Shown: piece after piece, positions 2,798 to 31,064 of the stretch
Layout of the letters: the number at the start of each line of letters is the position of its first letter
Numbering within the stretch: position 1 is the stretch's first letter
Source of the DNA: Rhodothermales bacterium
GTDB lineage: Bacteria > Bacteroidota > Rhodothermia > Rhodothermales > Bin80
Direction: 5' to 3'
Length of the DNA stretch: 34,046 bases
Assembly: GCA_012271205.1 (NCBI GenBank)
Contig: JAAXGT010000175.1
Coordinates: 1 to 34,046 of the forward strand
Program-made: the position numbers and the translations under genes
Notes under the pieces: model-generated
What the model saw: the letters and a program-made list of their open reading frames with translations, nothing else
Database searches by the model: none
What the model was told of the DNA's origin: nothing

Positions 2798-4539
2798 CTA
2801 TTTGACGAGAATCATCTGTCGGGCATGCCGGAATTGCCCCCATGAGAGGGTATAGAAGTAGCTCCCGCTGGCCACGGCACTTCCGCTATTGCTGAGGCCG
2901 TCCCAAGTCACGTTGTGCGTACCTTCACTGTACAACTCATCGTTGATGAGCGTGCGCACGAGGCGCCCGGAAACGTCATAGATCCGAACGCTGACGCGTT
3001 TGTCGAGTGGCAGTGTAAAGGAAATGTGGTCGACGGATTGAACGGGTTCGGGTAGTTGGGATGCAGTTCAAAGTCCGAGGGCACAATCACACGATCGTAT
3101 TCGATCCTCGTGTCCAGCCCGTCTCCGGACAGCACGCGCAAGAAGGCCCGCCTCGGATGCAGCATGGCGCTTTCCATAGTACGCGTATAGGTGGAATCGG
3201 CCGGATTGAACACTTCCTTGTACACATAGACACTGTCATCCACACCTTGGAAGGACAACGCGACCTCATTAGGGCCATCCCCGTGAGGATCGCCCAGGAA
3301 GGCCAATTTTCCGGCGAATTCAGGTCCCTGAGGGCCATTCTCATAATACGTCGTCATGACCCCCGCCGAATCCCGATGGATGGTATCAAAGCCATTAACC
3401 AGGTCATCCGGAAATTGTATGCTCCGCACCGAATAGCTGGCTGGATCTTCGACATCCCCCTCAATGTAGTCCGCAATGCGTATCCAGGTCGGCGGATTGC
3501 CGGCGACAAAACTACCTGACGTGTAAGACAGCCCGCTGCCGATCAGCTCCGGCTGACCGTCCATGTCAATGTCTCCCGCCGTAAGGCCCAGCCCTGACAA
3601 GCCGGGGATAAGCCCGTAAACCAGATTCCCTGCATTTACTTCAAGCGCGTTTTCTCCGGCCTCGTAATTCAGAAGCGTGACATTGGAGGTCGGATAAGCG
3701 GGACAGTACACTTCGTCATCGCCATTGCCATCCATGTCTACGGCTGCACATCCGAAGAGCGCAACCTGATCAGTCGGAGCCGCATGTCTAAACGCCGCCG
3801 TGTCAGGTGCCGTCGGAGCCACGTACATATCCGGGTCGATTGTTCTGGCATTTGTAAAGTTGAGATTGTTCCAACTCATCATGGCAATCTCCATGTCACT
3901 ACCCCCATCCAAGTTGGCCGGAGTAATACCGTACGCACTGCCTCCGCCCCGATTTACTTCGTCAACGCCAGCCGTGATCCTTGACGTCCATCGCGCCTCT
4001 TGGAACCAAGCCCCCAATCCAGTGCCCAAATCGACGGCCGAAACGACATACCAACTGTCGTAGTTGTTATTAGAACCATTGTTACCAAACAGCAGCTCAT
4101 TGGCCCCGTCGCCGTCAACGTCAGCAATAACCATCTGCTCGGTACGCCAGCGGTCTGGCAGATCGCCATCGAAATCCCATAAATCGGGTAGAGACGAAAA
4201 TATGTTGTCCCCTACGGCTTCCAATGCAACCAGCGCGGGACGGAACAGCAGTGTAATTGGGTTCGTCGCGCTGTAACCGCGCCCCGAAAAGGACAACACC
4301 TCGCCCATTCCATCCCCGTCCAGATCACCACCAACAATACCACGTGTGTTGTTCGTCGTGCCGGTGGAATCAAGGAACGGGGACGACCAGACCAACTCCC
4401 ACATATCCGGGCCGACACTTTCCAACATGTGAACACGGCCACCACCGGTATAGTCCGAAAGGATGATGTCAACCTTGCCGTCGCTGTCCAGATCGTACGG
4501 CCCGGCCACGGTACGTGCCCCCGAATGAACACCTGGCAT
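2798..4539 (-). pseudogene. FG-GAP/VCBS repeat protein with type IX sorting domain; lacks export signal, one frameshift
   Basis: The frame encodes an extracellular beta-propeller of FG-GAP type with repeated calcium-binding loops of the form DxDxDG (DLDSDGKVDI, DLDGDGMGEV, DVDGDGANEL, DMDGNGDDEV, DIDMDGQPEL). After residue 480 comes ELHPNYPNPFNPSTT, the linker of the type IX secretion C-terminal domain. A one-base deletion near 3022-3027 throws off the frame. The hidden frame gives SFTLPLDKRVSVRIYDVSGR and ends MILVK with TAG at 2800-2798, an intact sorting domain. At the other end there is no signal peptide: the frame stays open upstream of ATG 4539 (GLGQTLPNPPAC, resembling a mature N-terminus) and then runs into transposase remnant DNA near 4570. 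Without a signal peptide the product should not be exported. Confidence 0.8.
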
Positions 4540-5799: not shown

Positions 5800-6996
5800 A
5801 TGGCTGCGACAATCCTGCTGGTGGGTACTCTGGATACTAAGGGGGACGAATATGCTTTTGTTCGAGAGTTGATTGCAGCGCGGGGCCATGTTCCCTTGCT
5901 AATGGATGTAGGCGTTGCCGGAGAAGCCGGTTGCGCTGCTGATTTTTCTGCGGCCGAAGTGGCCGAGGCGGGGGGCAGCACACTGGCACGTCTTCGAGCG
6001 GAGGGCGACCGCAATGCGGCCTTGAAAGTCATGACGCGTGGGGCCGTTGCCCTCGCGGGCAATAGCGCTTCGACGATTGGGGGTGTGCTGGCGCTGGGTG
6101 GATCCGGGGGTACTGCCGTAGGCACGGCTGTCATGCGCAATCTGCCCGTCGGACTGCCGAAAGTCATGCTGTCAACCCTGACTTCGGGTGATGTTGGGCC
6201 GTACGTCGGCGAATCGGACATCGCCATGATGTACTCCGTCGTGGACATAGCGGGTCTCAACCGGATTTCGAGGCCAATCATAGCTAACGCGGTCGGGGCC
6301 GTGTGCGGTATGGCTGAGCAAGCTGTGCCCAAAGTGCAGGACAAGCCGCTGATAGCGGCGACGATGTTCGGAGTGACGACGCCGTGTGTGACACGTCTGC
6401 GCACGCGCCTGCAGAATGCGGGCTTTGAGGTGGTAGTGTTTCATGCGACCGGCAGCGGAGGGCGGGCGATGGAAAAGCTTATCCGCAGCGGGTTCTTCGC
6501 CGGTGTGGCCGATGTAACTACAACCGAATGGTGCGATGAAGTTGTCGGCGGCGTACTCAGTGCTGGATCGGATCGCCTCACGGCTGCCGCTGAAAGCAGC
6601 GTGCCTCAAGTGGTTTCGTGCGGTGCGCTGGATATGGTGAACTTCTGGGCAGTGGGCACGGTGCCGGAGCATTTTCAAGCCCGTAGGTTCCACGCACATA
6701 ACGCCAACGTCACCCTGATGCGGACCAGTCCGAACGAGTGTGCTCGTATTGGCAAGGCCATCGCGCAGCGGCTGAGCCGGGCCAGGGCGCCAGTCACACT
6801 TGTGCTGCCGCTTGGAGGCGTAAGCGCGATTGACGCACCCGGGCAGCCATTTTTCGCCCCCGAAGCTAATACGGCTCTTTTTGACGCACTCCGAGCTCAC
6901 GCTGGCCCGAATGTCAACCTTGTTGCGCTGGACCTGCATATCAATGACAATGCGTTTGCGGACGCCTTGGCGAGTCACCTGATCGAACTGCTTTGA
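5800..6996 (+). CDS. Tm-1-like / UPF0261 family protein
   Basis: The 398-residue protein matches the Tm-1-like (UPF0261) family from the first residues. ATILLVGTLDTKGDEYAFV is the conserved nucleotide-binding start. It is followed by MDVGVAGE, the glycine-rich loop VLALGGSGGTAVGTAVMRNLP, MLSTLTSGDVGPYVGESDI and, in the second half, VFHATGSGGRAMEKLI and DVTTTEWCDEVVGGV. Structures of the plant Tm-1 resistance protein show ATP bound in this N-terminal domain; the bacterial enzymes' reaction is not established. There is no signal peptide, so it is cytoplasmic. It is the first gene of a three-gene operon; the cupin starts 4 bases after its stop. Length and motifs are complete. No Shine-Dalgarno sequence precedes the ATG. 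Confidence 0.88.
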   Translation: MAATILLVGTLDTKGDEYAFVRELIAARGHVPLLMDVGVAGEAGCAADFSAAEVAEAGGSTLARLRAEGDRNAALKVMTRGAVALAGNSASTIGGVLALGGSGGTAVGTAVMRNLPVGLPKVMLSTLTSGDVGPYVGESDIAMMYSVVDIAGLNRISRPIIANAVGAVCGMAEQAVPKVQDKPLIAATMFGVTTPCVTRLRTRLQNAGFEVVVFHATGSGGRAMEKLIRSGFFAGVADVTTTEWCDEVVGGVLSAGSDRLTAAAESSVPQVVSCGALDMVNFWAVGTVPEHFQARRFHAHNANVTLMRTSPNECARIGKAIAQRLSRARAPVTLVLPLGGVSAIDAPGQPFFAPEANTALFDALRAHAGPNVNLVALDLHINDNAFADALASHLIELL

Positions 6997-7000
6997 TTCT

Positions 7001-7408
7001 ATGGAGAAGATTGGCTCCTGCACAATCGCCTACAAAGGCGATGTTCAAACCTTGGTCTTCCCTTGGGGGGAAATCCGTCTCTTGGCTGAACCTGTGCTTT
7101 CTGGAGGCCAAACCATGACGTTCGGTGAAGTAACGGTGGCACCGGGAACCGGACATGCTCGGCACAACCATCCCAATGCCGACGAAATCATATATGTTAT
7201 AGAAGGTGAAGCCTTGCAAATGCTTGATGACGAGTCCCCTGTTCCAATCCGGCCGGGTGCCTGCATTTATGTGCCTCGCGGTGTTTACCATGGAACGCAA
7301 AACACGGGATCAGGGACGCTGCGGCTTATTGTGATCTATGCGCCGGCCGGCGAAGAAACCGTGTTGCGTGCGCTTCCCGAAGTCGAATTGCGCGATCCGG
7401 ACGGATGA
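7001..7408 (+). CDS. Small cupin-domain protein
   Basis: This 135-residue protein is a single-domain cupin. The first cupin motif is visible as GHARHNHPNADEIIYVIEG (about residues 47-65), with the metal-binding pattern HxH plus Glu. The second is PGACIYVPRGVYHGTQN, with the last metal-binding His. Such proteins bind Fe, Mn, Zn or Ni, and act as sugar or acid isomerases, dioxygenases or sensors; the substrate cannot be told from the sequence. There is no signal peptide. It lies 4 bases after the Tm-1-like gene, and its TGA stop overlaps the ATG of the next gene (ATGA at 7405-7408), so the three proteins are translationally coupled. Cupins often sit beside carbohydrate or aromatic catabolic genes, and a small-molecule pathway fits here too. 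Confidence 0.85.
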   Translation: MEKIGSCTIAYKGDVQTLVFPWGEIRLLAEPVLSGGQTMTFGEVTVAPGTGHARHNHPNADEIIYVIEGEALQMLDDESPVPIRPGACIYVPRGVYHGTQNTGSGTLRLIVIYAPAGEETVLRALPEVELRDPDG

Positions 7409-10400
7409 GGGCATCCACTGCATTCCTGCTGCTACCCCTGATCCTCTCGGCCTGCCAGTCGGAGCAGCCCCGTCGTCTGGAAGTGCTCTTTTTGGGACAT
7501 GATAGTCGACACCACGATTCCGGCACCTACGCGCCAATGCTCAAGGCCGCTCTCGCACCGGACGGTATCAATCTGACCTACACAACCGACGTCGCTTCAT
7601 TAGGTGAAGATCATCTTGCACAGTTTGACGCTCTGATCGTGTATGCGAATCACGACTCTATATCGGCAGACCAAGAATCGGCACTGCTGGATTTTGTGGC
7701 CTCCGGAGGGGGCTTTCTGCCCATCCACAGTGCCTCGTACTGTTTTCGCAACTCTGATGCTTATGTGCAACTGGTGGGCGCACAGTTCCTCTCTCATGGT
7801 GTGGGTATGTTTACGGCCCGGATTGTGGATGCAGAACACCCAATCACGCGGCAATTGACGCCGTTTGAGACTTGGGACGAGACTTATGTGCATACGCATC
7901 ACGCGTCCGACCGCCATATTCTGATGGAGCGGACGGACTCATCCGGACACGTGGAGCCCTGGACATGGACGCGTACGCACGGCAAGGGGCGTGTCTTTTA
8001 TACCGCTTACGGACACGATGAGCGTACGTGGCAGCATTCGGAATTCCATGCGCTGATCAAGGCCGGGCTTTTGTGGGCAATTGGGGACAAGCGCCGCGCA
8101 AGTTTTGAAACATTGGAGCTGCCGCCACTGGAGTATGTGTCCCATGACAGCATTCCCAACTACGAAGAGCGCAATCCTCCACCCATGCTGCAGCGCCCGC
8201 TTGCGCCGGAAGCCTCGGCACGGCACATACAAGTGCCTCCGGGCTTCAGCCTGTCACTGTTTGCAAGCGAACCGGACATCATTAACCCGATGGCCATGGC
8301 TTGGGATGAACGGGGACGACTGTTTGTCATTCAGACGCAGGATTATCCGAATGCGTTGCAGCCTGCCGGTGAAGGCCATGATGTTATTACGATCGCCGAG
8401 GATACGAATGGTGACGGCCGAGCGGATAAGTTTAATAAATTTGCCAGCGGACTCAGCATTCCAACGAGCCTGACGTTCGCGCGTGGCGGTGTAATCGTAT
8501 CACAGGCGCCGCATATGCTGTTCTTGAAGGACACCGATGGTGATGATCGCGCAGATGTGCGCGAGGTGCTGTTCACTGGATTTGGGACGGGTGATACGCA
8601 CGCGGGGCCGTCTAATCTTAGATACGGATTTGACAACTGGATCTGGGGTACAGTGGGCTACAGTGACTTTAAGGGTGTAATCGGCGGCGATTCCGTCTTT
8701 ATGCCCCAAGGAGTTTTCCGGTTTACACCTGGAGGTGAGCGGTTTGAACCCATTGCCGAGTTTACCAATAATACATGGGGATTGGGATTCAGTGAGACCT
8801 TTGACGTATTCGGCTCTACGGCGAATAACGAGCACAGCGTTTTCGTTGCCATTTTCAACCGCTACTACGACGGTGTTCCAAGCCTGCGCGCAGATGGCAA
8901 GATCAAAATCGATGGGCACTATGCTATGTACCCGAATACACCGAACATCCGTCAGGTGGATGTGTGGGGCGGGTACACAGCGGCTGCGGGTCACAATCTG
9001 TACACGGCGCGGGATTTTCCCCGGGAGTACTGGAACCGTGTGGCACTTATAAACGAGCCTACGGGGCACCTGCTGCACAAGGCCATAATGGAACCTTGGG
9101 GATCGGGTTTCAGGGAGCGCGACGCGTGGAATCTGCTGGCCAGCAGCGATGAATGGGTGTCGCCGGTACATGCCGAAGTCGGACCGGATGGTGCGGTGTG
9201 GATTCTGGACTGGTACAATTTTGTCATCCAGCATAACCCAACACCGGCAGGGTATGCCACAGGGCCCGGCAATGCCTATGTCAGTGCGTTGCGCGACAAG
9301 GCGCACGGGCGCATCTGGCGTCTAAGCTATAACGGGGCGCATCGGACGCGGCAGCCTGAGCTCACGCGAGCAAGTCCAGACGTACTCGTACGCACGCTGG
9401 GGCACGACAATATGTTCTGGCGCCTAACGGCACAGCGCCTGCTCGTTGAGCGCGGCAACTTGGATGTAGCCGACGCGCTGATTGCCTTGGTTCAGGAGCA
9501 GTCAATGGATGTCCTTGGGCTGAACAGCGCGGCCGTGCATGCCTTATGGACACTGCACGGCCTGCACACGCTGAATGACAAAAGTGCATTGGAAGCGGCC
9601 TACAGTGCGCTAAATCATCCGGCTGCCGGCGTTCGAAAGGCAGCCTTGCAAATCCTTCCTCGTACGGCTGCGTCACTGGATAGAATCGTGGCGGCTGATC
9701 TGCTGAGTGACGCGGATCTGAACGTACGCCTCGCCGCAATGCTGGCGGTCAGCGAAATGCCGTCGAGCCAAGAGGCCGGCGCACAATTGTATACCCAGAC
9801 CCGGCAACCCGGAGTGATAGATGACTTGTGGCTGCCGGAGGCACTCCTCATTGCGGCAACCCGTCACCGTACCGGATTCATGGCCGCCTACGCGGAAGAT
9901 GCAGGCGAGGGCCTCGGAGCTGTTGGGACGCCCGCGCCCATCAACTGGTCTGGTGTAAAGCTGGATACGCAGGACTGGCGCCGCATGTCACTGCCATTGC
10001 CTTGGGTTAGAACGGATGACTTAGCATCTTTTGACGGCGTCGTTTGGTTCCGGACAGAGGTGGAAGTTCCTCAAGCCGGAGCTGCGTTGGAATTGGGATT
10101 AAGCGGCATATATGACAGCGATATTACATGGGTCAACGGGGTGGAAGTAGGCCGGACAGAGAACGGATACGGCGCACTTAGAACGTATACGGTGCCGGCC
10201 CATGTCCTGAAATCAGGGCGCAATGTCATGGCAGTTCGTGTGGATGATCCGCGCGGACGGGGCGGTTTTTGGGGTGAACCCGAGGACATGTACTTGCGGG
10301 GAGCGGGCGTGGACATTTCACTTGCCACCTTATGGCAGTACAAGGTGGAGGAAGAGTACGTAGGTGGCAAAAAGTCAGAGTTTAGTTCCCGGGAGCCGCT

Positions 10401-10815
10401 CGCCACTCAGATTATGCGCCTGTTTGCTGCGAGCGAAAGCACTCTCGAAACCATGGATGAGCGCGTTGTGGCGCTAAGCGTGTTGCCGGGCGAGCTTCGC
10501 TACGACCGGCCTTCGTTTACGGTCGCAGCGGGTGAACGTGTACGCCTGCGCTTTACAAATCCAGGCGATGTGCCGCACAATGTGGTAATTACGGTGCCGG
10601 GCGGGGTGAGTATGGTTGGGCCATTATTGGATGCGGATCCGGAAGGTCCATATGTGCCGGATATTGCTGAAGTGTTGTATTTCACCGACATGGTGGATGC
10701 CGGCGGCGAGACGGAACTCGTCTTTACTGCGCCATCGGAGCCCGGAAATTACCCGTTCGTGTGTACCTTCCCAGGACACTGGCGCCTTATGCAGGGGGTG
10801 ATGGCGGTGGAGTAA
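7405..10815 (+). CDS. Multidomain lipoprotein: ThuA + dehydrogenase-type beta-propeller + HEAT + jelly-roll + azurin-like copper domain
   Basis: A 1136-residue envelope protein. Residues 1-17 form a lipoprotein signal with lipobox LSAC. Residues 25-230 are ThuA-like (VLFLGHDSRHHDSGTYAPML, LPIHSASYCF, THGKGRVFYTAYGHDERTW). Residues 270-635 form the soluble-dehydrogenase beta-propeller of the planctomycete type, with VPPGFSLSLFASEPDI, NPMAMAWDERGRLFVIQT and DTNGDGRAD. Residues 645-830 are HEAT-like helices. Residues 855-965 form a galactose-binding-like jelly-roll (DGVVWFRTEVEVPQ, SDITWVNGVEVGRTENGYG). Residues 1020-1136 are a cupredoxin: PHNVV with His1058, then CTFPGHWRLM supplying Cys1120, His1125 and Met1129 in azurin spacing. 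Relatives of this propeller usually end in a CxxCH haem domain; here copper replaces it. I infer periplasmic oxidation of a sugar-like substrate, with copper as electron acceptor. The ATG overlaps the cupin stop. Confidence 0.85.
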   Translation: MRASTAFLLLPLILSACQSEQPRRLEVLFLGHDSRHHDSGTYAPMLKAALAPDGINLTYTTDVASLGEDHLAQFDALIVYANHDSISADQESALLDFVASGGGFLPIHSASYCFRNSDAYVQLVGAQFLSHGVGMFTARIVDAEHPITRQLTPFETWDETYVHTHHASDRHILMERTDSSGHVEPWTWTRTHGKGRVFYTAYGHDERTWQHSEFHALIKAGLLWAIGDKRRASFETLELPPLEYVSHDSIPNYEERNPPPMLQRPLAPEASARHIQVPPGFSLSLFASEPDIINPMAMAWDERGRLFVIQTQDYPNALQPAGEGHDVITIAEDTNGDGRADKFNKFASGLSIPTSLTFARGGVIVSQAPHMLFLKDTDGDDRADVREVLFTGFGTGDTHAGPSNLRYGFDNWIWGTVGYSDFKGVIGGDSVFMPQGVFRFTPGGERFEPIAEFTNNTWGLGFSETFDVFGSTANNEHSVFVAIFNRYYDGVPSLRADGKIKIDGHYAMYPNTPNIRQVDVWGGYTAAAGHNLYTARDFPREYWNRVALINEPTGHLLHKAIMEPWGSGFRERDAWNLLASSDEWVSPVHAEVGPDGAVWILDWYNFVIQHNPTPAGYATGPGNAYVSALRDKAHGRIWRLSYNGAHRTRQPELTRASPDVLVRTLGHDNMFWRLTAQRLLVERGNLDVADALIALVQEQSMDVLGLNSAAVHALWTLHGLHTLNDKSALEAAYSALNHPAAGVRKAALQILPRTAASLDRIVAADLLSDADLNVRLAAMLAVSEMPSSQEAGAQLYTQTRQPGVIDDLWLPEALLIAATRHRTGFMAAYAEDAGEGLGAVGTPAPINWSGVKLDTQDWRRMSLPLPWVRTDDLASFDGVVWFRTEVEVPQAGAALELGLSGIYDSDITWVNGVEVGRTENGYGALRTYTVPAHVLKSGRNVMAVRVDDPRGRGGFWGEPEDMYLRGAGVDISLATLWQYKVEEEYVGGKKSEFSSREPLATQIMRLFAASESTLETMDERVVALSVLPGELRYDRPSFTVAAGERVRLRFTNPGDVPHNVVITVPGGVSMVGPLLDADPEGPYVPDIAEVLYFTDMVDAGGETELVFTAPSEPGNYPFVCTFPGHWRLMQGVMAVE

Positions 10816-14338: not shown

Positions 14339-15772
14339 TCAAAGCAGAATATCACGCACCACGTGAGCCTCCTCCACACCGGTGAGCTTGTGGTCCAATC
14401 CCCGAAACTTTACTGTGAGTCGGTTGTGATCGATGCCCAACTGATGTAGCAGCGTAGCATTCAGATCGCGGATGTGTACCGGATTCTCAAGTACGTTGTA
14501 AGAAAAGTCATCGGTCAGCCCGTACTCAAATCCTGGGCGAATGCCGCCGCCAGCCATCCACAACGAGAAGCAGCGTCCGTGGTGGTCACGCCCACTGCTG
14601 GGATGACCGAGCGTGCCTTGGCTGTAAATCGTACGTCCGAACTCACCACCCCAGACCACCAGGGTCTCTTCGAGCAGGCCGCGCCTTTTCAGGTCCTTGA
14701 CGAGTGCCACCGAAGCCTGATCCACATCCCGGCACTGCGCAGGGAGCTGCTTTTGAAGCGCAATGTGCTGGTCCCATCCGCGATGAAAAAGCTGTACAAA
14801 CCGTACTCCCCGTTCAACCAGGCGACGCGCAAGCAAACAATTGGCTGCGTAACTTCCAGGCCTCCGGGACTGCGGTCCGTAGAGACCAAATACTTCTTGC
14901 GGCTCATCCGAAAAATCCGTGAGTTCGGGTACCGCGGTCTGCATGCGGTACGCCATTTCGTAGGCTGAAATCCGTGCCAGTGTTTCCGAGCTCCCGACAT
15001 TTTCCGCTTCTTTTTGGTTCAGGGCAGCCAAATCGTCGAGCATCCTTCGGCGCTGCCTGCGTGTGATGCCTGGCGGATCCTTCAAGTAAAGCACCGGATT
15101 GACGCCGGGTCTCAGCAGCACACCCTGATGGCTGCTGGGCAGGTATCCGTTGCCCCAGAGTCGCGCAAAAATCGGCTGTCCCGGATTCTTGCCGGAGCCC
15201 TGTGACAGGAGCACAACGTATGCAGGCAGATTCTCGTTTTCACTGCCCAGTCCGTAGCTGAGCCAGGCGCCAAGGCTCGCATGGCCGATCTGCTGTGATC
15301 CGGTGTTGATGAACGTGATGGCGGGATCGTGGTTAATCGCCTCAGTGACCATCGACTTGACGATACAAATGTCATCGGCGATCGTTTGTGTGTAAGGCAA
15401 GAGGTCGCTGATCCATGTTCCGTGTTTGCCGCACTGCCGCATGGACCAGTTTGGAGCCACGACCGGGAAAGAAGCCTGGTTGGCGGTCATGCCGGTTACC
15501 CGCTGGGTTCCACGTACCGAATTCGGCAGCTCGGTCGCGTGCAAATCACGTTGCCGGGGCTTGTAGTCGAACAGATCCACATGCGAAGGACCACCGGACT
15601 GGAAGAGGTAAATGACGTGTCGCGCCTCGGGCACAAAATGCAGTCCCGAGTGACGCTTGACCAGATTCGGGAAGAGAAGTGAGGCCAGGCCAATACGACC
15701 AATACCGCGGGCCGATTGCCCCAGAAACGTACGGCGCGTAATGGTTCGTTCGTAGGCTAGAAGCGGATTCAT
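14339..15772 (-). CDS. DUF1501 (sulfatase/phosphatase-fold) protein with Tat signal
   Basis: The 477-residue product belongs to the DUF1501 family, alkaline-phosphatase-superfamily-like proteins of unknown reaction, abundant in Planctomycetota and in Bacteroidota relatives. The N-terminus has a twin-arginine signal, [20 protein letters not shown], so it is exported folded. Family motifs include [64 protein letters not shown] and [21 protein letters not shown]. The longer frame opens at 15829, but ATG at 15772 is chosen because it puts the Tat motif near the N-terminus and overlaps the stop of the upstream gene by one base (TGATG), implying translational coupling. DUF1501 genes almost always follow DUF1549/DUF1553 genes, exactly as here. 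Confidence 0.9.
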
Positions 15773-18700
15773 CAGTTGCGGGTAATGGTTTCGCTGAGGT
15801 TGAAAAGCAGATTCGCCACGATTGTCCAAGCCGCATGTGCAGCTGTATCCGCTGGCAGCGTGGTCGATGAGGCACCAACACTCAGGATGGCACGGCTGCG
15901 GGCCGGATTGGCCTCAAATACGTGCATCTCCTCCGCAAGGCGGGCCTCCAGACGTTGCTGTTCCTCCTGGTCGGGTTTCCGGCTCGTCACCGCCTCGAAC
16001 GCATACGCAATTCGCTCCTCCTCATCTGTGGTGCGGAGTATTCGTGCCGCAAAAGCACGGCTGGCCTCAACAAATTGCGGATCGTTAAGCAGCACCAGTG
16101 CCTGTAAGGGCGTGTTTGTGTTTTCGCGCTGTACTGTACAGACTTCCCGCGTTGGCGCATCAAACACCATCATGCCCGGTGGAGGGGCCGTGCGTTTCCA
16201 GTACGTGTACAGACTGCGGCGGTAGAGTTTTTCGCCATGGTCCTGTACAAAGGTTTGGGCCGTAGCGGGCGTGCTCCCGTAATGACTGACTTCTTTCCAA
16301 AGCCCGGCAGGCTGGTAGGGACGCACACTGGGGCCGCCGAGTCGGCGTACCAGCAACCCGCTTACAGCCAATGCCTGATCGCGAATGAATTCGGACTGGA
16401 GCCTGAACCGTGGACCGCGGGCAAGGAGGATGTTTTCCGGGTCACGCGTTGTTTGCTCCGGTGTGGTACTACTCGATTGCCGGTATGTAGCACTCATTAC
16501 GATAGTCTTTAGAAGTGCCTTTGTGTCATATCCGGAGTCTGCAAATGTGACGGCCAGCCAGTCCAATAGCGCGGGATGCGACGGCAAAGTGCCCCGTGCA
16601 CCAAAGTCCGCTGGCGTAACGACGAGCCCACGCCCAAACAGCATTTGCCAGAATCGGTTGACTGAAACGCGGGCGGTCAGTGGATGGGAGGGGTCCATCA
16701 ACCACTCGGCCAGCTCCAGCCGTGATGCATTATCCGGCAGTGGTGGAAGCCAGGATGGTACACCGGCCGGCACAGAATCCGTGGGCTGGTCGTATTGACC
16801 CCGGTACAGGATGCGGGTCGGACGCGGCTTGTCCGCCATGGCCATGATCATTGTCGGGTGCGGCTGTGTGAGGATGCGAAGCCGGTCTTCCAGGTTTGCG
16901 ATTGCGTGACGCACAGGCGCCGCCTCTTCAGCCTGCGCATAGAAGGTCTCGCGCAAAAGGTTCGAATCCCCGTCGTCATCAAGCAGCGCACGCTCCACTT
17001 CCGGGGGAAGCGTAGGGCCGTCATCGATGCCCTCCATGGCCAATACTCGAAAATGTCTCGCCACCTGCCGGTTTCCAGCACCAAAATTCAGCATTACGGT
17101 AAGATGCGGCGCTTCCCTCGCATCAAGTGGCGTATCAAATGTCAGCGTCAGGTGTACCGGTCGACCCCGTAGCGGACCGGGTGACCAGCCATTGTGACGC
17201 CGGTCGTCCAGCACGTTCTCCGGAGAGTATTCTGAATGCGCATGCGAAGCTGTGACGCGTGCCAGTTCCAGTGTGTTGTGAAAGTCCACTTGGTCAGCCG
17301 GAAGCGCGCCAGCGCGTACATGGACACTAGTCATGACGAAGGATCGGGGCAAAACGTGATCCCCATGTCCAAGTGCGCCGGAAGGTTCATGCGGATAGAA
17401 AGTCACGCGCAGTCCCGTGATTGCGGCATCCAGCTCTTCGGGCATGGTCAGCGACACGTTGTACGCGGCAAGGTATGCCGGCTCATCAATTCGCACCGAG
17501 CCATCGGGCTGCACTTCGCCTGTGTATCCGGAATTGGGCGTAGTCACCTTTGTGGCCTGCAATGGATGCAACTGCAGATTCTGCCCTCGTAAGCGGAGCA
17601 GTCTCCGCTCACGCTCTTCCCAAATGCCTTGGGCCCAATGCGTACGGCTGGTTTCGGCGTGCAACAATGCCAATTCGGCCCTTACCTGTTCAATTTCGAC
17701 TTCTGTGGCAAGAGGGGTCAAGGTTTCCAGTCGTGGCACCGCGTTTATGCCGCCGTCTCCGTCCAGGCCGCGTTCGGGCACACTGTTGAAAAAGGCGAAA
17801 AGGCGGTAGTAATCGCGTTGAGTAATAGGATCGTACTTGTGGTCGTGGCACTGGGCGCACGCAAACGTCAGCCCCAGAAAGACCTCTCCCGTTGTTTTGA
17901 CACGGTCGGCGACGTAGTTCACCAGGTTTTCCTCCGGGATAGTGCCGCCTTCATGCGTAATCATGTGATTCCGGTGAAACCCTGTAGCCAGGCGCTGCGC
18001 ATCGGTTGCTTCAGGCAACAGGTCACCTGCGAGCTGCTCGATTACGAAGTCGTCGAATGGCTTGTTGGTATTGAAGGCGTTGATGACCCAGTCCCGCCAG
18101 AGCCACATATGCCGTCCGCCGTCTATGGAATAGCCATTCGTATCCGCGTAGCGTGCCAAATCCAGCCAATGCACGGCCATGCGTTCGCCAAAGTGGGGCG
18201 ACGCCAGGAGCCGATCTACCAGATGCTCATAGGCATTGGGCCGGGTATCAGCCAGAAACGCGCGCACGTCCTCCACCGGTGCTGGCAATCCTGTGAGATC
18301 TAGGTGCAGTCGGCGAATCAATGTACGCCGGTCAGCTTCTCTCGCGGGTTCAAGTCCCTCTCGCTCCAGTCGCACCAAGACAAAATGGTCGACTTCATTA
18401 CGCACCCATTTTCGCTGACGGATTCGGGGCAACTCCGGCAGGCCGGGGTAATAAGCGACCAGTGGGGCTTCCACTTGGCGCCTTGCGCGACCCAACTCAA
18501 AAGCGTCTGGATTTCGGACTCAGTGAGAGTGTGCCGGGTTTCTGGCGGCGGCATGCGCTCCTGTGGACGTTTGTGCGTAATGCGACGCACAAGTTCGCTG
18601 GCACTTGGATTGCCCGGCACAATGACACGCCGCGTGGTATCGTTCCGCAGCGGAGCGTACAGCCCCGCTTCCGTGTGCAGACTTAATTCGGCTTCACGGC

Positions 18701-27725: not shown

Positions 27726-28506
27726 CCAAGTCGTAAATGGTAGCGAGACTTCGGTTGCAAGAAGGTTCGATGTAATCCTGATTGCTGTCATTTTGGCCAG
27801 CGTTGTGGCGGTCATGCTCGAGAGTATTGAGCCCGTCAACGTGCGCCATCATATCCTCCTTCACACCTTGGAATGGGGATTCACACTAATCTTCACGATC
27901 GAGTATACACTCCGCCTCTATAGCAGCCCGGCCCCCTTGGCTTATGCCCGAAGCTTCTATGGTATCGTGGATCTTATGGCTGTACTGCCAACATATATCA
28001 GTGTGTTGATTCCGGGTGCACAAGCGCTGATTGTAGTTCGCCTGTTGCGCATTATGCGCGTATTTCGAGTGCTCAAGCTTGCCAGCTACACGACTGCCGG
28101 TGAGGACTTGGTCAGAGCATTGCGGAAGGGAGGACGCACCATCGTTGTGTTTCTGGTGGCGATTTTTGCGCTGGCAATTACGCTAGGATCGCTGATCTAT
28201 TTGATCGAAGGTGCGGAGAACGGCTTTGACAGCATTCCGCGCAGTGTGTATTGGGCGATTGTGACGCTGACTACCGTAGGCTATGGAGATATTTCGCCCC
28301 AAACGCCCCTGGGGCAGCTTTTGGCCGCCGTCATAATGGTGCTCGGTTACGCCATTATTGTGGTTTGGGCTGGCATCATCAGCAGTCACCTCGCTTCCAA
28401 GAAAGGGACATCTACAATCTTTATGTGCGTAACGTGTGGCGACAGCACCAGTCACACCGAAGCGCGCTACTGCAGGAGGTGCGGTACTCCACTTCAGTCC
28501 GAATGA
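27664..28506 (+). CDS. Voltage-gated-type potassium channel with C-terminal zinc ribbon
   Basis: The 280-residue protein is a six-helix voltage-gated channel subunit. S1 is VILIAVILASVVAVML. S4 is the basic helix ALIVVRLLRIMRVFRVLKLA, with spaced arginines as voltage sensor. The pore loop carries TLTTVGYGDISPQT, the K+ selectivity filter, between S5 (TIVVFLVAIFALAITLG) and S6 (LAAVIMVLGYAIIVVWAGII). Instead of the RCK/KTN nucleotide-binding domain of many bacterial channels, the C-terminus is a short zinc ribbon, CVTCGDS...YCRRCGTPL (about residues 257-277). ATG at 27664 is preferred over 27607, which would add an unrelated peptide; it overlaps the NUDIX gene by 62 bases. Its stop overlaps the end of the convergent aspartokinase fusion by 13 bases. 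Inner membrane, probably a homotetramer. Confidence 0.88.
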   Translation: MTETALQSKRNQLRQWRQRIDQVVNGSETSVARRFDVILIAVILASVVAVMLESIEPVNVRHHILLHTLEWGFTLIFTIEYTLRLYSSPAPLAYARSFYGIVDLMAVLPTYISVLIPGAQALIVVRLLRIMRVFRVLKLASYTTAGEDLVRALRKGGRTIVVFLVAIFALAITLGSLIYLIEGAENGFDSIPRSVYWAIVTLTTVGYGDISPQTPLGQLLAAVIMVLGYAIIVVWAGIISSHLASKKGTSTIFMCVTCGDSTSHTEARYCRRCGTPLQSE

Positions 28507-31064
28507 AGCATGATTTCGGCAGCGGGTGCACGCATGTTGTAATCGGAGCTCATGACGCGGCCGTAAGCGCCGGCATTCGCGATTAGCAGTACATCTCCTT
28601 CTTCTGTGTGCGGCAAACGCCGCGCCCGGCCCAGTATGTCGCCGGTTTCGCAGATCGGGCCAACGATTTCCGCCGTAATGGCAGCTGGTGCATCCAGGCG
28701 AGACAGGTTCACTACGCGGTGGTAGGATCCGTACAGCGCGGGCCGGATAAGTGAATTCATGCCGGCTTCCACACCCACATAGCAGGCGCTGCCCTTGTGT
28801 TTGATTTGAGTGACGCGGGCTAGGAGTACGCCGCTTTCGGCAACGAGGAATCGTCCGGGCTCCACCCACAGTTCAAATCTCGGACAGGCCTCGTGGAATT
28901 CCTGAAGGCTGTGGCTAAGTTGGTCCAGATCCAGCGGCTGCGTACCAGGTTTCTCGGGAACGCCAAAACCACCTCCCACATTGAGTCGCCTGACCTCGGG
29001 AAACTGGGTACGCAGAGAGGCGAGAAAATAAGCCGTTTCGCTCCACGTGGCAGGCGTCAGAATTCCACTTCCCACGTGGGCATGCAAGCCCGTGATATGC
29101 AGATCGGTTTGGCGGGCCACGTGTGCCAAATGTGGCAGTACGTCCGGCGTGATCCCGAATTTGGATTGGGCGCCTGCGGTGCGGACATGTTTGTGATGGC
29201 CGTGGCCGTGCCCGGGATCCACACGAGCCAGCACCTCGCGACCGGCAAAAACATCGGGCCACAGTTCAAGTGCGCGCACGCTGTCAAGTGTAACATGCCC
29301 GGCCAGTTCAAATCCCAGCTCATATTCTTGGCGCGGCACGAAATTGGGTGTAAAAAGAACGCGATCCTTGTCCAGATCCTTGAACAGCGTGTGGATGTAG
29401 CGGAGCTCTCCAGGTGACACACACTCGAATCCTAAACCGGCGGCATAAAGGAGTCGTAACACTTCTGGATGGCTGCAGGCCTTCATCGAGTAGAAGCACC
29501 GGTCCGCTGCATTCAGAGCCTGAACGCGCTGTGCCGTATTTGAAATAGTCTCGGCGTCATACACAAAGCAGGGGGCTGAATCGGCAGCCATCTCCAAGAG
29601 CGCCGAACGGTGTGTGCGCCACCAAGGCGCCTTGACATCTCCAGGGCTGTGACCAAACAGCTCACGATAGGTCGAACCAAACAGGCCGTCCGGCCCGATC
29701 TGACCGAATATCAGTCCGTGAAGCTTTCTGGTCAGCCGTGCGGCGTGCGCGATGTCCACCACAAATGTAAAATTGAGGTCACTGGCGGCCTGTGTAACGA
29801 GATAGAGCTTCTGTTCATCCAGTACTTCAAGCGCGGGTCCAAGCTCGTGGAGCACGCTGCGAATGGCGCGACCGACCAGACTAACAGCAGCGCAGCCACT
29901 GATTTGTCGCGCTTTGCAAAATGCGCTTAAATCGGTAAGCAAAGCTTCAATGGCGGTTGCATCCAGTGTGAAGCCATGGATGGGATCGATGGAGACCGTC
30001 ACGTTAGTTTCCGAAGTGGCCACCAGCCCTACGGAAACCGCATGCCGTTCGAACACGCTGAACACACGTGCGAGAAAACCGACAGAGTGCCACATGCGTG
30101 GTGTTTCCATGGTGATCAGCGTAAGGTCAGTTCGGGCGGAAATGGCCTTTACCTGCGCGCCATAGCTGACTGCATCTGCAGCAATGACTGTTCCGGCAAT
30201 CTGCGGGTTGTGGGTCGAGCGGACATGCAGCGGAATTCGCTGCTGTCGAAGGGGCTCGATGCAGCGCGGATGCAGCACTTCTGCGCCGGAGCTGGCCAAT
30301 TCCTGTGCCTCGTCGTATTCCAGATGTTTGAGCAGGCGTGCACTGGGAATCAAGCTGGGGTTGGCCGTGAACATGCCCGGTACATCGGTCCAAATCTCCA
30401 GCCGGTTGGCTTGGAGTTTGGAGGCGAAGTATGCGGCTGAGGTGTCGGAACCTCCCCACCCCACCAGCACAGTTTCCCCGGATTGATCGCTAGCAATAAA
30501 CCCTTGCGTCAATACAGCCTCATGTTGCACCGCTTGCAAGTTCTTATCCGGGTCGTGGTGGCACTGGGCGGAGAGGTAGCGCTCACGCGGGAGAAGGCGT
30601 GCATCATAACGGGCCGTAAGAAGCTTTCGGGCGTCCAGCCACTGGGCGGGAATGCCTTGATGCTGCAGAAACGCTGCGCCGAGCGTCGTCACCATGATTT
30701 CACCCAACGCCAAGACCCGAGCTCTGAGGGAGGGCCCGGCATCACGCGTAAGCGAAATGCCATATGCCAGGCGCTCCAAATCCTTCAAGAGGGTTCCCAA
30801 GAGCGCCTGCCCATCGACTTTCAGCTCACTGGCCAATTCAAAATGGCATTGCCGAATAATTGCCAGTGGTGCTTCATGGCTGCCGTGAAGCGCCCCATCC
30901 ACGAGTGATTCCAGAGCGCGGGAAATGCCTGCAGCTGCGGAGCAAACGATGAATGGACGCTCCCCTTCGGAAAGGCGAGTGCGCGCAATGTCAGCGATCG
31001 TGTCCCAGTGTGTGCGTGAGGACACACTGGTACCACCAAACTTGAGTACTACCCAAGCAGACAA
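28494..31064 (-). CDS. Bifunctional aspartate kinase / diaminopimelate decarboxylase
   Basis: One 856-residue chain joins the first and last enzymes of lysine synthesis. Residues 1-300 are aspartate kinase (VVLKFGGTSVSSR, SDQSGETVLVGWGGSDTSAA), followed by an ACT-type regulatory region (VFSVFERHAVSVGLVATSE). From about residue 470 comes PLP-dependent diaminopimelate decarboxylase: FYSMKACSHPEVL with the PLP lysine, GFECVSPGELRYI, GLHAHVGSG, LNVGGGFGVPE, ELWVEPGRFLVAESGVL, ICETGDILGR and NAGAYGRVMSSDYN. The fusion is known from Xanthomonadaceae and a few other lineages. It lets lysine act on both steps in one protein, which is an inference here. It is divergent from the DNA-glycosylase gene with 65 bases between the starts. 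Confidence 0.94.
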   Translation of the reverse strand: MSAWVVLKFGGTSVSSRTHWDTIADIARTRLSEGERPFIVCSAAAGISRALESLVDGALHGSHEAPLAIIRQCHFELASELKVDGQALLGTLLKDLERLAYGISLTRDAGPSLRARVLALGEIMVTTLGAAFLQHQGIPAQWLDARKLLTARYDARLLPRERYLSAQCHHDPDKNLQAVQHEAVLTQGFIASDQSGETVLVGWGGSDTSAAYFASKLQANRLEIWTDVPGMFTANPSLIPSARLLKHLEYDEAQELASSGAEVLHPRCIEPLRQQRIPLHVRSTHNPQIAGTVIAADAVSYGAQVKAISARTDLTLITMETPRMWHSVGFLARVFSVFERHAVSVGLVATSETNVTVSIDPIHGFTLDATAIEALLTDLSAFCKARQISGCAAVSLVGRAIRSVLHELGPALEVLDEQKLYLVTQAASDLNFTFVVDIAHAARLTRKLHGLIFGQIGPDGLFGSTYRELFGHSPGDVKAPWWRTHRSALLEMAADSAPCFVYDAETISNTAQRVQALNAADRCFYSMKACSHPEVLRLLYAAGLGFECVSPGELRYIHTLFKDLDKDRVLFTPNFVPRQEYELGFELAGHVTLDSVRALELWPDVFAGREVLARVDPGHGHGHHKHVRTAGAQSKFGITPDVLPHLAHVARQTDLHITGLHAHVGSGILTPATWSETAYFLASLRTQFPEVRRLNVGGGFGVPEKPGTQPLDLDQLSHSLQEFHEACPRFELWVEPGRFLVAESGVLLARVTQIKHKGSACYVGVEAGMNSLIRPALYGSYHRVVNLSRLDAPAAITAEIVGPICETGDILGRARRLPHTEEGDVLLIANAGAYGRVMSSDYNMRAPAAEIMLHSD

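Follow-up and report, generated by a model that had tools for sequence, protein, structure and literature searches.

A conserved operon for a UPF0261 protein, a cupin and an exported copper-domain protein in a Rhodothermales bacterium, with a proposed role in the catabolism of oxidised sugars

The operon at positions 5800-10815 (+ strand) of the window, by which we mean the whole stretch of 34,046 nucleotides that was analysed (Rhodothermales bacterium, contig JAAXGT010000175.1), is real, conserved and, as a whole, undescribed within the literature searched. It represents a variant form of the UPF0261-TBST gene set with two additions, an exported redox protein and a cupin, and it most likely serves the catabolism of C3-oxidised sugars. 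More specifically, we propose, at roughly even odds, that it makes up half of a conserved module by which an oxidised (keto) sugar is catabolised, the order of the steps, the substrate and each reaction being as we infer them. The pointers to such a module are a structurally solved UPF0261 homologue with bound acetovanillone (PDB 9MPY), the exchange of a cupredoxin for a cytochrome c in the exported protein, and the 3-ketoglycoside, SusCD and sugar ABC transporter genes that adjoin the set in other genomes.

The first gene (5800-6996, +) encodes a cytoplasmic UPF0261 (Tm-1-like) protein of 398 residues, identified from its ORF, its Pfam domains (PF06792/PF23189), PDB sequence matches, a fold search and common core residues; scores of 205 bits for the N domain and 318 bits for the C domain, against a cut-off of 27, place it in the family. 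It is followed after 4 nt by the gene for a single-domain metal cupin of 135 residues (7001-7408, +; Cupin_2, PF07883, 67 bits), in which both cupin motifs (3 His + 1 Glu) are intact and H55, H57, E62 and H97 are invariant in 18 homologues. The cupin stop overlaps the start of the third gene by four bases (ATGA, 7405-7408, +; spacing -4), as it also does in two relatives (L059 and L063), and this gene (7405-10815, +) encodes an exported multi-domain lipoprotein of 1136 residues, resolved by Pfam and NCBIfam models into ThuA, DUF7133 propeller, HEAT, galactose-binding-like and cupredoxin parts. The three ORFs and their spacings are exactly as given in an earlier note made from the letters of the window, and the operon is intact.

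The N-terminus of the exported protein, MRASTAFLLLPLILSACQSEQ, reads as a lipoprotein signal with the lipobox LSAC (Cys17; 7405-7455, +, read from the translation). The ThuA domain occupies residues 27-225 (7483-8079, +; PF06283, 139 bits, 3.7e-40) and the DUF7133 propeller residues 268-642 (8206-9330, +; PF23500, 377 bits, 2.2e-112, with Foldseek and a motif comparison with YliI). These are followed by weak HEAT-like repeats (9544-9747, +; PF13646, 20.1 bits, under the cut-off) and by a galactose-binding-like domain (9925-10359, +; PF21467, BetaGal_gal-bd, 30 bits, and chains of sialate O-acetylesterase) that was found only in the window, L059 and L063. The protein ends in a cupredoxin domain of the auracyanin/azurin type (10450-10812, +; PF00127, Copper-bind, 35 bits, and alignment), the best PDB match of which is auracyanin A, and its type-1 copper ligands H1058, C1120, H1125 and M1129 are kept and nearly invariant in the aligned exported proteins. 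The propeller also passes the NCBI model TIGR02604 for PVC-type haem-binding CxxCH proteins (235 bits, cut-off 122); the window's protein shares the propeller with that group and differs from it in having a cupredoxin where that group has the haem domain, and in the added ThuA and galactose-binding parts.

The cupredoxin, with conserved ligands, forms the C-terminus in 10 of the 11 aligned exported proteins, and in the remaining one (L051) a cytochrome c (CFTCH) stands in its place. A cytochrome c match is likewise contained in a planctomycete relative of 1665 residues, and another DUF7133 protein of the window's own genome ends in cytochrome c. Since the carrier is exchanged, the most likely role of the domain is electron transfer and not copper catalysis, and we regard the C-terminus as most likely an exchangeable electron-transfer module. 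The earlier note's view of the cupredoxin as an electron-transfer part is thereby borne out, whereas its copper-dependent oxidation is not: the copper reads as an electron carrier, and the protein showed no copper site of a catalytic kind. Planctomycetota also hold proteins of 1660 residues with a ThuA-DUF7133-ThuA build beside UPF0261-TBST-cupin genes (L140:3855-8849 and L150), with a cytochrome c match in L140.

What the propeller itself does is less readily assigned. In a model of modest quality (pLDDT 69) its nearest folds by Foldseek are PQQ sugar dehydrogenases (2ism, 1cq1, the AA12 enzyme 6h7t and 3das), with an E-value of 2e-10 to 2ism, a match that on so modest a model identifies an sGDH-type propeller fold. 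The exported protein could thus be a PQQ-dependent sugar dehydrogenase of the sGDH or AA12 kind that passes electrons to its fused cupredoxin, comparable to the haem domain of AA12 pyranose dehydrogenase, and a fused, exchangeable carrier would suit a dehydrogenase. We nevertheless consider this unlikely. Where YliI has the R-N motif RNPQGMAM, the window's propeller family has NNTWGLGF, so that the Arg, the PQQ-binding residue in PQQ sugar dehydrogenases, is apparently lost to Asn; this comparison was made by motif matching because profile comparison and automatic alignment with YliI gave one short local match and were otherwise inconsistent. No PqqE above the cut-off was found in the genome, the assembly of which is 92% complete (PQQ uptake is possible), and a sequence-profile search of the propeller against the PDB gave no credible match. 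The propeller of the window therefore shares with sGDH, Asd and AA12 the fold and, with AA12, the fusion to an electron-transfer domain, but appears to depart from them at the RN motif, and PqqE was not detected above its cut-off. A sugar-related role of the propeller is likely, PQQ dependence is doubtful and periplasmic oxidation is plausible.

The usual partner of UPF0261, the TIM-barrel family TBST (PF09370), is absent from the window and is not adjacent to its UPF0261 gene. The genome encodes exactly one TBST, on another contig (C184), in an operon (L068) of the order TBST-cupin-propeller with a four-base TBST/cupin overlap and an adjoining divergent Gfo/Idh/MocA gene; the exported protein encoded there has the same parts permuted, as DUF7133-cupredoxin-ThuA, and this arrangement recurs throughout the window's family (f1). 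Among 148 relatives, UPF0261 is present in 45; both families occur in 44, UPF0261 only in 1, TBST only in 5 and neither in 98 (Fisher 9e-31, a descriptive value, as relatives are not independent). One relative (G008) has TBST and no UPF0261 of the window's subfamily. The co-evolution of the two families was reported in 2016 (PMC5028733) for the bacterial pair, which is fused as the plant Tm-1-like protein, and the co-occurrence is confirmed here. The literature found gives the pair neither a cupin or exported-propeller partner nor a function, and in the window's genome the pair is split over two operons. We conclude that TBST is an obligate-looking partner of UPF0261 and that the window's operon is one half of the set. 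The TBST of the window's family is only about 50% identical to other TBSTs, and hence the operon with that second half could act on a substrate of its own.

TBST also occurs, in Firmicutes and others, as a fusion with AraC-type HTH or sigma-54 activator domains (L137:5275-6465, L107:7879-9759 and L147:6822-8660). These fusions adjoin UPF0261 and stand-alone TBST genes and are likely sensors of the pathway ligand, and fusion to regulatory domains suggests that TBST binds a small molecule. The fusions would also fit UPF0261 and TBST being sensors or regulators and not enzymes, which we think improbable: at these loci UPF0261 also has a stand-alone TBST next to it, which is what one would expect of a fusion that senses the enzyme's ligand, and a kinase has been reported from Novosphingobium that we take to be a UPF0261 protein.

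The case for a kinase comes from the homologues of the window's UPF0261 protein. A PDB sequence search gave 3wrw-3wry (Tm-1) and 9mpy, and the fold search named the latter as Saro_1862, a UPF0261 domain protein of Novosphingobium aromaticivorans with bound acetovanillone; before this, no functional description of UPF0261 had been found in the literature. According to a 2026 paper (PMC13101465), acetovanillone catabolism in N. aromaticivorans begins with MarK, a single-component kinase. Saro_1862 and MarK are probably identical. The window's protein, the 9MPY protein, Tm-1 and a second UPF0261 subfamily have in common the core residues D12-T13-K14-E17, G100-G101, K121, D149, N154, H215, D238, E243, H300 and R308. 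The window's subfamily has 110 invariant positions, of which the 9MPY protein matches 67 and differs at 43, while Tm-1 matches 90; the 9MPY protein is 35% identical to that of the window, and in the tree the window's protein stands on the Tm-1 side and the 9MPY protein on another branch. Given this partial difference and the placement, we carry over the ATP-dependent kinase function and not the acetovanillone substrate: the window's UPF0261 protein is a putative MarK-type ATP-dependent kinase, like Saro_1862 in fold and in the conserved residues, yet on a separate branch, and with a putative sugar substrate where MarK acts on phenols. As a phenol is an enol, an enolised keto-sugar would be a chemically reasonable substrate for such a kinase. 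It should be added that the second subfamily (about 36% identity; L035-L039, L041-L043 and L047 of the relatives) lies in another conserved operon that has no TBST and that contains an FAD_binding_4 oxidase, a 365-residue protein with no Pfam match, UPF0261 and a creatininase-family protein, often together with ThuA and an AP_endonuc_2 TIM barrel.

That the closest functionally described homologue binds acetovanillone could also be read to mean that the whole set degrades a phenolic compound, with UPF0261 acting in a MarK-like manner on a hydroxyphenyl ketone. We give this little credence, since across lineages the neighbours of the set are sugar transporters, Gfo/Idh/MocA, APE2, ThuA and SusCD, and the 9MPY protein, on its separate branch, differs at so many of the positions that are invariant in the window's subfamily.

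The gene set was traced by reading the neighbourhoods of UPF0261 loci in the 148 genomes with domain searches on all ORFs, because longest-ORF gene calls masked genes under antisense ORFs in some relatives. Within the window's family, the order UPF0261-cupin-propeller is shared with L059 and L063, which belong to two further genera and both keep the ATGA overlap. Relatives of the same class (family f18) have cupin-UPF0261-TBST followed by the fused ThuA-DUF7133-electron carrier protein, some with a free ThuA in front, and the order cupin-UPF0261-TBST-propeller was read at L049, L050, L051 and L061. In family f15 the ThuA-DUF7133-cupredoxin protein precedes cupin-UPF0261-TBST, and the order propeller-cupin-UPF0261-TBST was read at L053-L056 and L060. 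Family f14 has UPF0261-TBST-cupin and family f9 UPF0261-TBST. At one f15 locus (L055:15942-18208), genes for an NgoMIV-type restriction enzyme and a DNA methylase lie directly past the ThuA gene of the joined operon.

Scanned with the UPF0261 alignment alone, a public genome collection yielded 80 loci, spread over Chloroflexi, Acidobacteria, Planctomycetota, Actinomycetota, Firmicutes, haloarchaea and other groups. In 59 of these 80, UPF0261 has a TBST gene within 2.5 kb, and in 23 a cupin of the window's type is equally near, TBST being present every time; from the background of one such cupin in 909 kb of the same loci's flanks, 0.44 would be expected. Annotated plasmids give the same picture, with TBST-cupin-UPF0261 in Haloterrigena and Halobaculum, UPF0261-TBST-cupin-Gfo in Mesorhizobium, and UPF0261-TBST facing a sugar ABC transporter, Gfo and cupin in Rhizobium. 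UPF0261, TBST and the cupin are thus a recurrent core gene set from haloarchaea to Actinomycetota. Genomes related to Rhodothermia add to this set an exported ThuA/DUF7133 protein, the last domain of which is of the type-1 copper kind or, in one relative, a cytochrome c. That the window's three genes are mere neighbours is very improbable in view of this conservation across phyla and the background test, even though some members of the window's family (f1) have UPF0261 and a cupin with no DUF7133 protein detected (L033, L065 and L066) or UPF0261 alone, lacking the cupin as well (L032, L062 and L067).

The joint operon put forward in the earlier note is accordingly supported, the neighbourhood search having found the grouping conserved in other genomes, contrary to the note's own refuting condition that the three genes be together nowhere else. 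Its statement that the combination has no described pathway holds within the literature searched, with the reservation that the UPF0261-TBST association itself was already in print. The note had covered half of the system and contained neither the TBST on the other contig nor the additional propeller operon with its permuted protein; it also lacked the breadth of the core, the connection with 3-ketoglycoside genes and the structure of a UPF0261 homologue that points to an ATP-dependent kinase.

The link to keto-sugars comes chiefly from the neighbours of the set. In L050, SusC, SusD and an alkaline phosphatase lie ahead of it, with an opposite-strand ORF in between, and a 3-keto-disaccharide hydrolase, a GMC oxidoreductase and a Gluconate_2-dh3 protein follow directly after it. 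In Neobacillus (L121) a single run contains a sugar ABC transporter, APE2, cupin, UPF0261, TBST, Gluconate_2-dh3 and GMC. These neighbours, with the SusCD and sugar ABC transporter genes, support the earlier suggestion of a sugar-like substrate. In the window, no GMC/Gluconate_2-dh3 dehydrogenase or DUF1080 (3-keto-disaccharide) hydrolase gene adjoins the operon; the genome as a whole has 2 Gluconate_2-dh3 and 9 DUF1080 matches, and on its contig C49 GMC, Gluconate_2-dh3, APE2 and Gfo genes face a DUF7133-cytochrome c protein. The LacC-like gene of the genome adjoins a DUF7133 protein other than that of the window. Across 18 genomes, 6 DUF7133 genes have a Gluconate_2-dh3 gene no more than 5 kb away where 0.57 would be expected, 5 of the 6 being apparently orthologous loci of one family and so not independent. 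LacA and LacC of the lactose 3-dehydrogenase pathway are GMC and Gluconate_2-dh3 proteins, so these neighbours are of the kinds that make up that pathway. The likeness to the 3-ketoglycoside pathway (LacABC dehydrogenase, DUF1080 hydrolase) therefore consists in the genes beside the set in L050 and their relatives in the window's genome, and the difference in their not being adjacent in the window and in no separate LacB-like cytochrome having been noted. What becomes of 3-ketogalactose in the lactose 3-dehydrogenase pathway was described as unknown (PMC9007349), and the set may act at this step.

Based on these data we put forward a hypothetical sequence of reactions. A GMC/Gluconate_2-dh3 dehydrogenase of the LacA/LacC kind with its genes elsewhere, or else the propeller, would carry out the periplasmic oxidation of a glycoside at C3, and the exported protein would bind or process the oxidised sugar through its ThuA and galactose-binding parts and pass electrons on via the cupredoxin. 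The keto-sugar would then enter the cytoplasm, where the cupin could reshape it by isomerisation or enolisation, UPF0261 could phosphorylate it with ATP, and TBST could cleave or dephosphorylate the resulting (enol-)phosphate. The earlier outline of a periplasmic redox step, a cytoplasmic step and a sugar-like substrate comes close to this but is incomplete, and any oxidation by the propeller itself is hypothetical. The most specific version, an undescribed 3-keto-sugar route in which a phenol-type kinase (UPF0261) acts on the enol form, the TIM barrel cleaves the product and the exported protein is a new non-PQQ periplasmic electron exit or oxidase for glycoside C3-oxidation, is a tentative proposal that we would sooner doubt than accept.

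Other genes of the window were considered. A DUF1501 and PSCyt2/PSD1 pair lies downstream (14339-18495, -), and the pair or a part of it recurs near the UPF0261 loci L059, L049, L133 and L160, which may be coincidence; it was set aside as part of the system, as the DUF1501 and PSD1 families are both common in such genomes. A downstream TonB receptor was set aside as the importer, being absent at the corresponding place in L059. An FG-GAP repeat protein (2908-4539, -) has a C-terminus that resembles a sorting domain at its start (FELHPNYPNPFNPSTT) but not further on, which suggests a frameshift or truncation; a 195-residue ORF (1954-2541, -) holds a TonB receptor plug domain only and is possibly the remnant of a larger receptor gene; and one ORF (28494-31064, -) fuses aspartate kinase-type and diaminopimelate-type PLP decarboxylase domains.

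Both UPF0261 and TBST occur widely, in bacteria, archaea, fungi and plants, the tomato virus-resistance gene Tm-1 being an example of the fused plant form, and the two families have had no known common function. In the exported protein, one propeller scaffold carries copper or haem electron carriers in exchange. The association of the two families with a cupin and with 3-ketoglycoside genes points to a concrete candidate class of substrates, and it could close a gap in the literature on what becomes of 3-keto-sugars.
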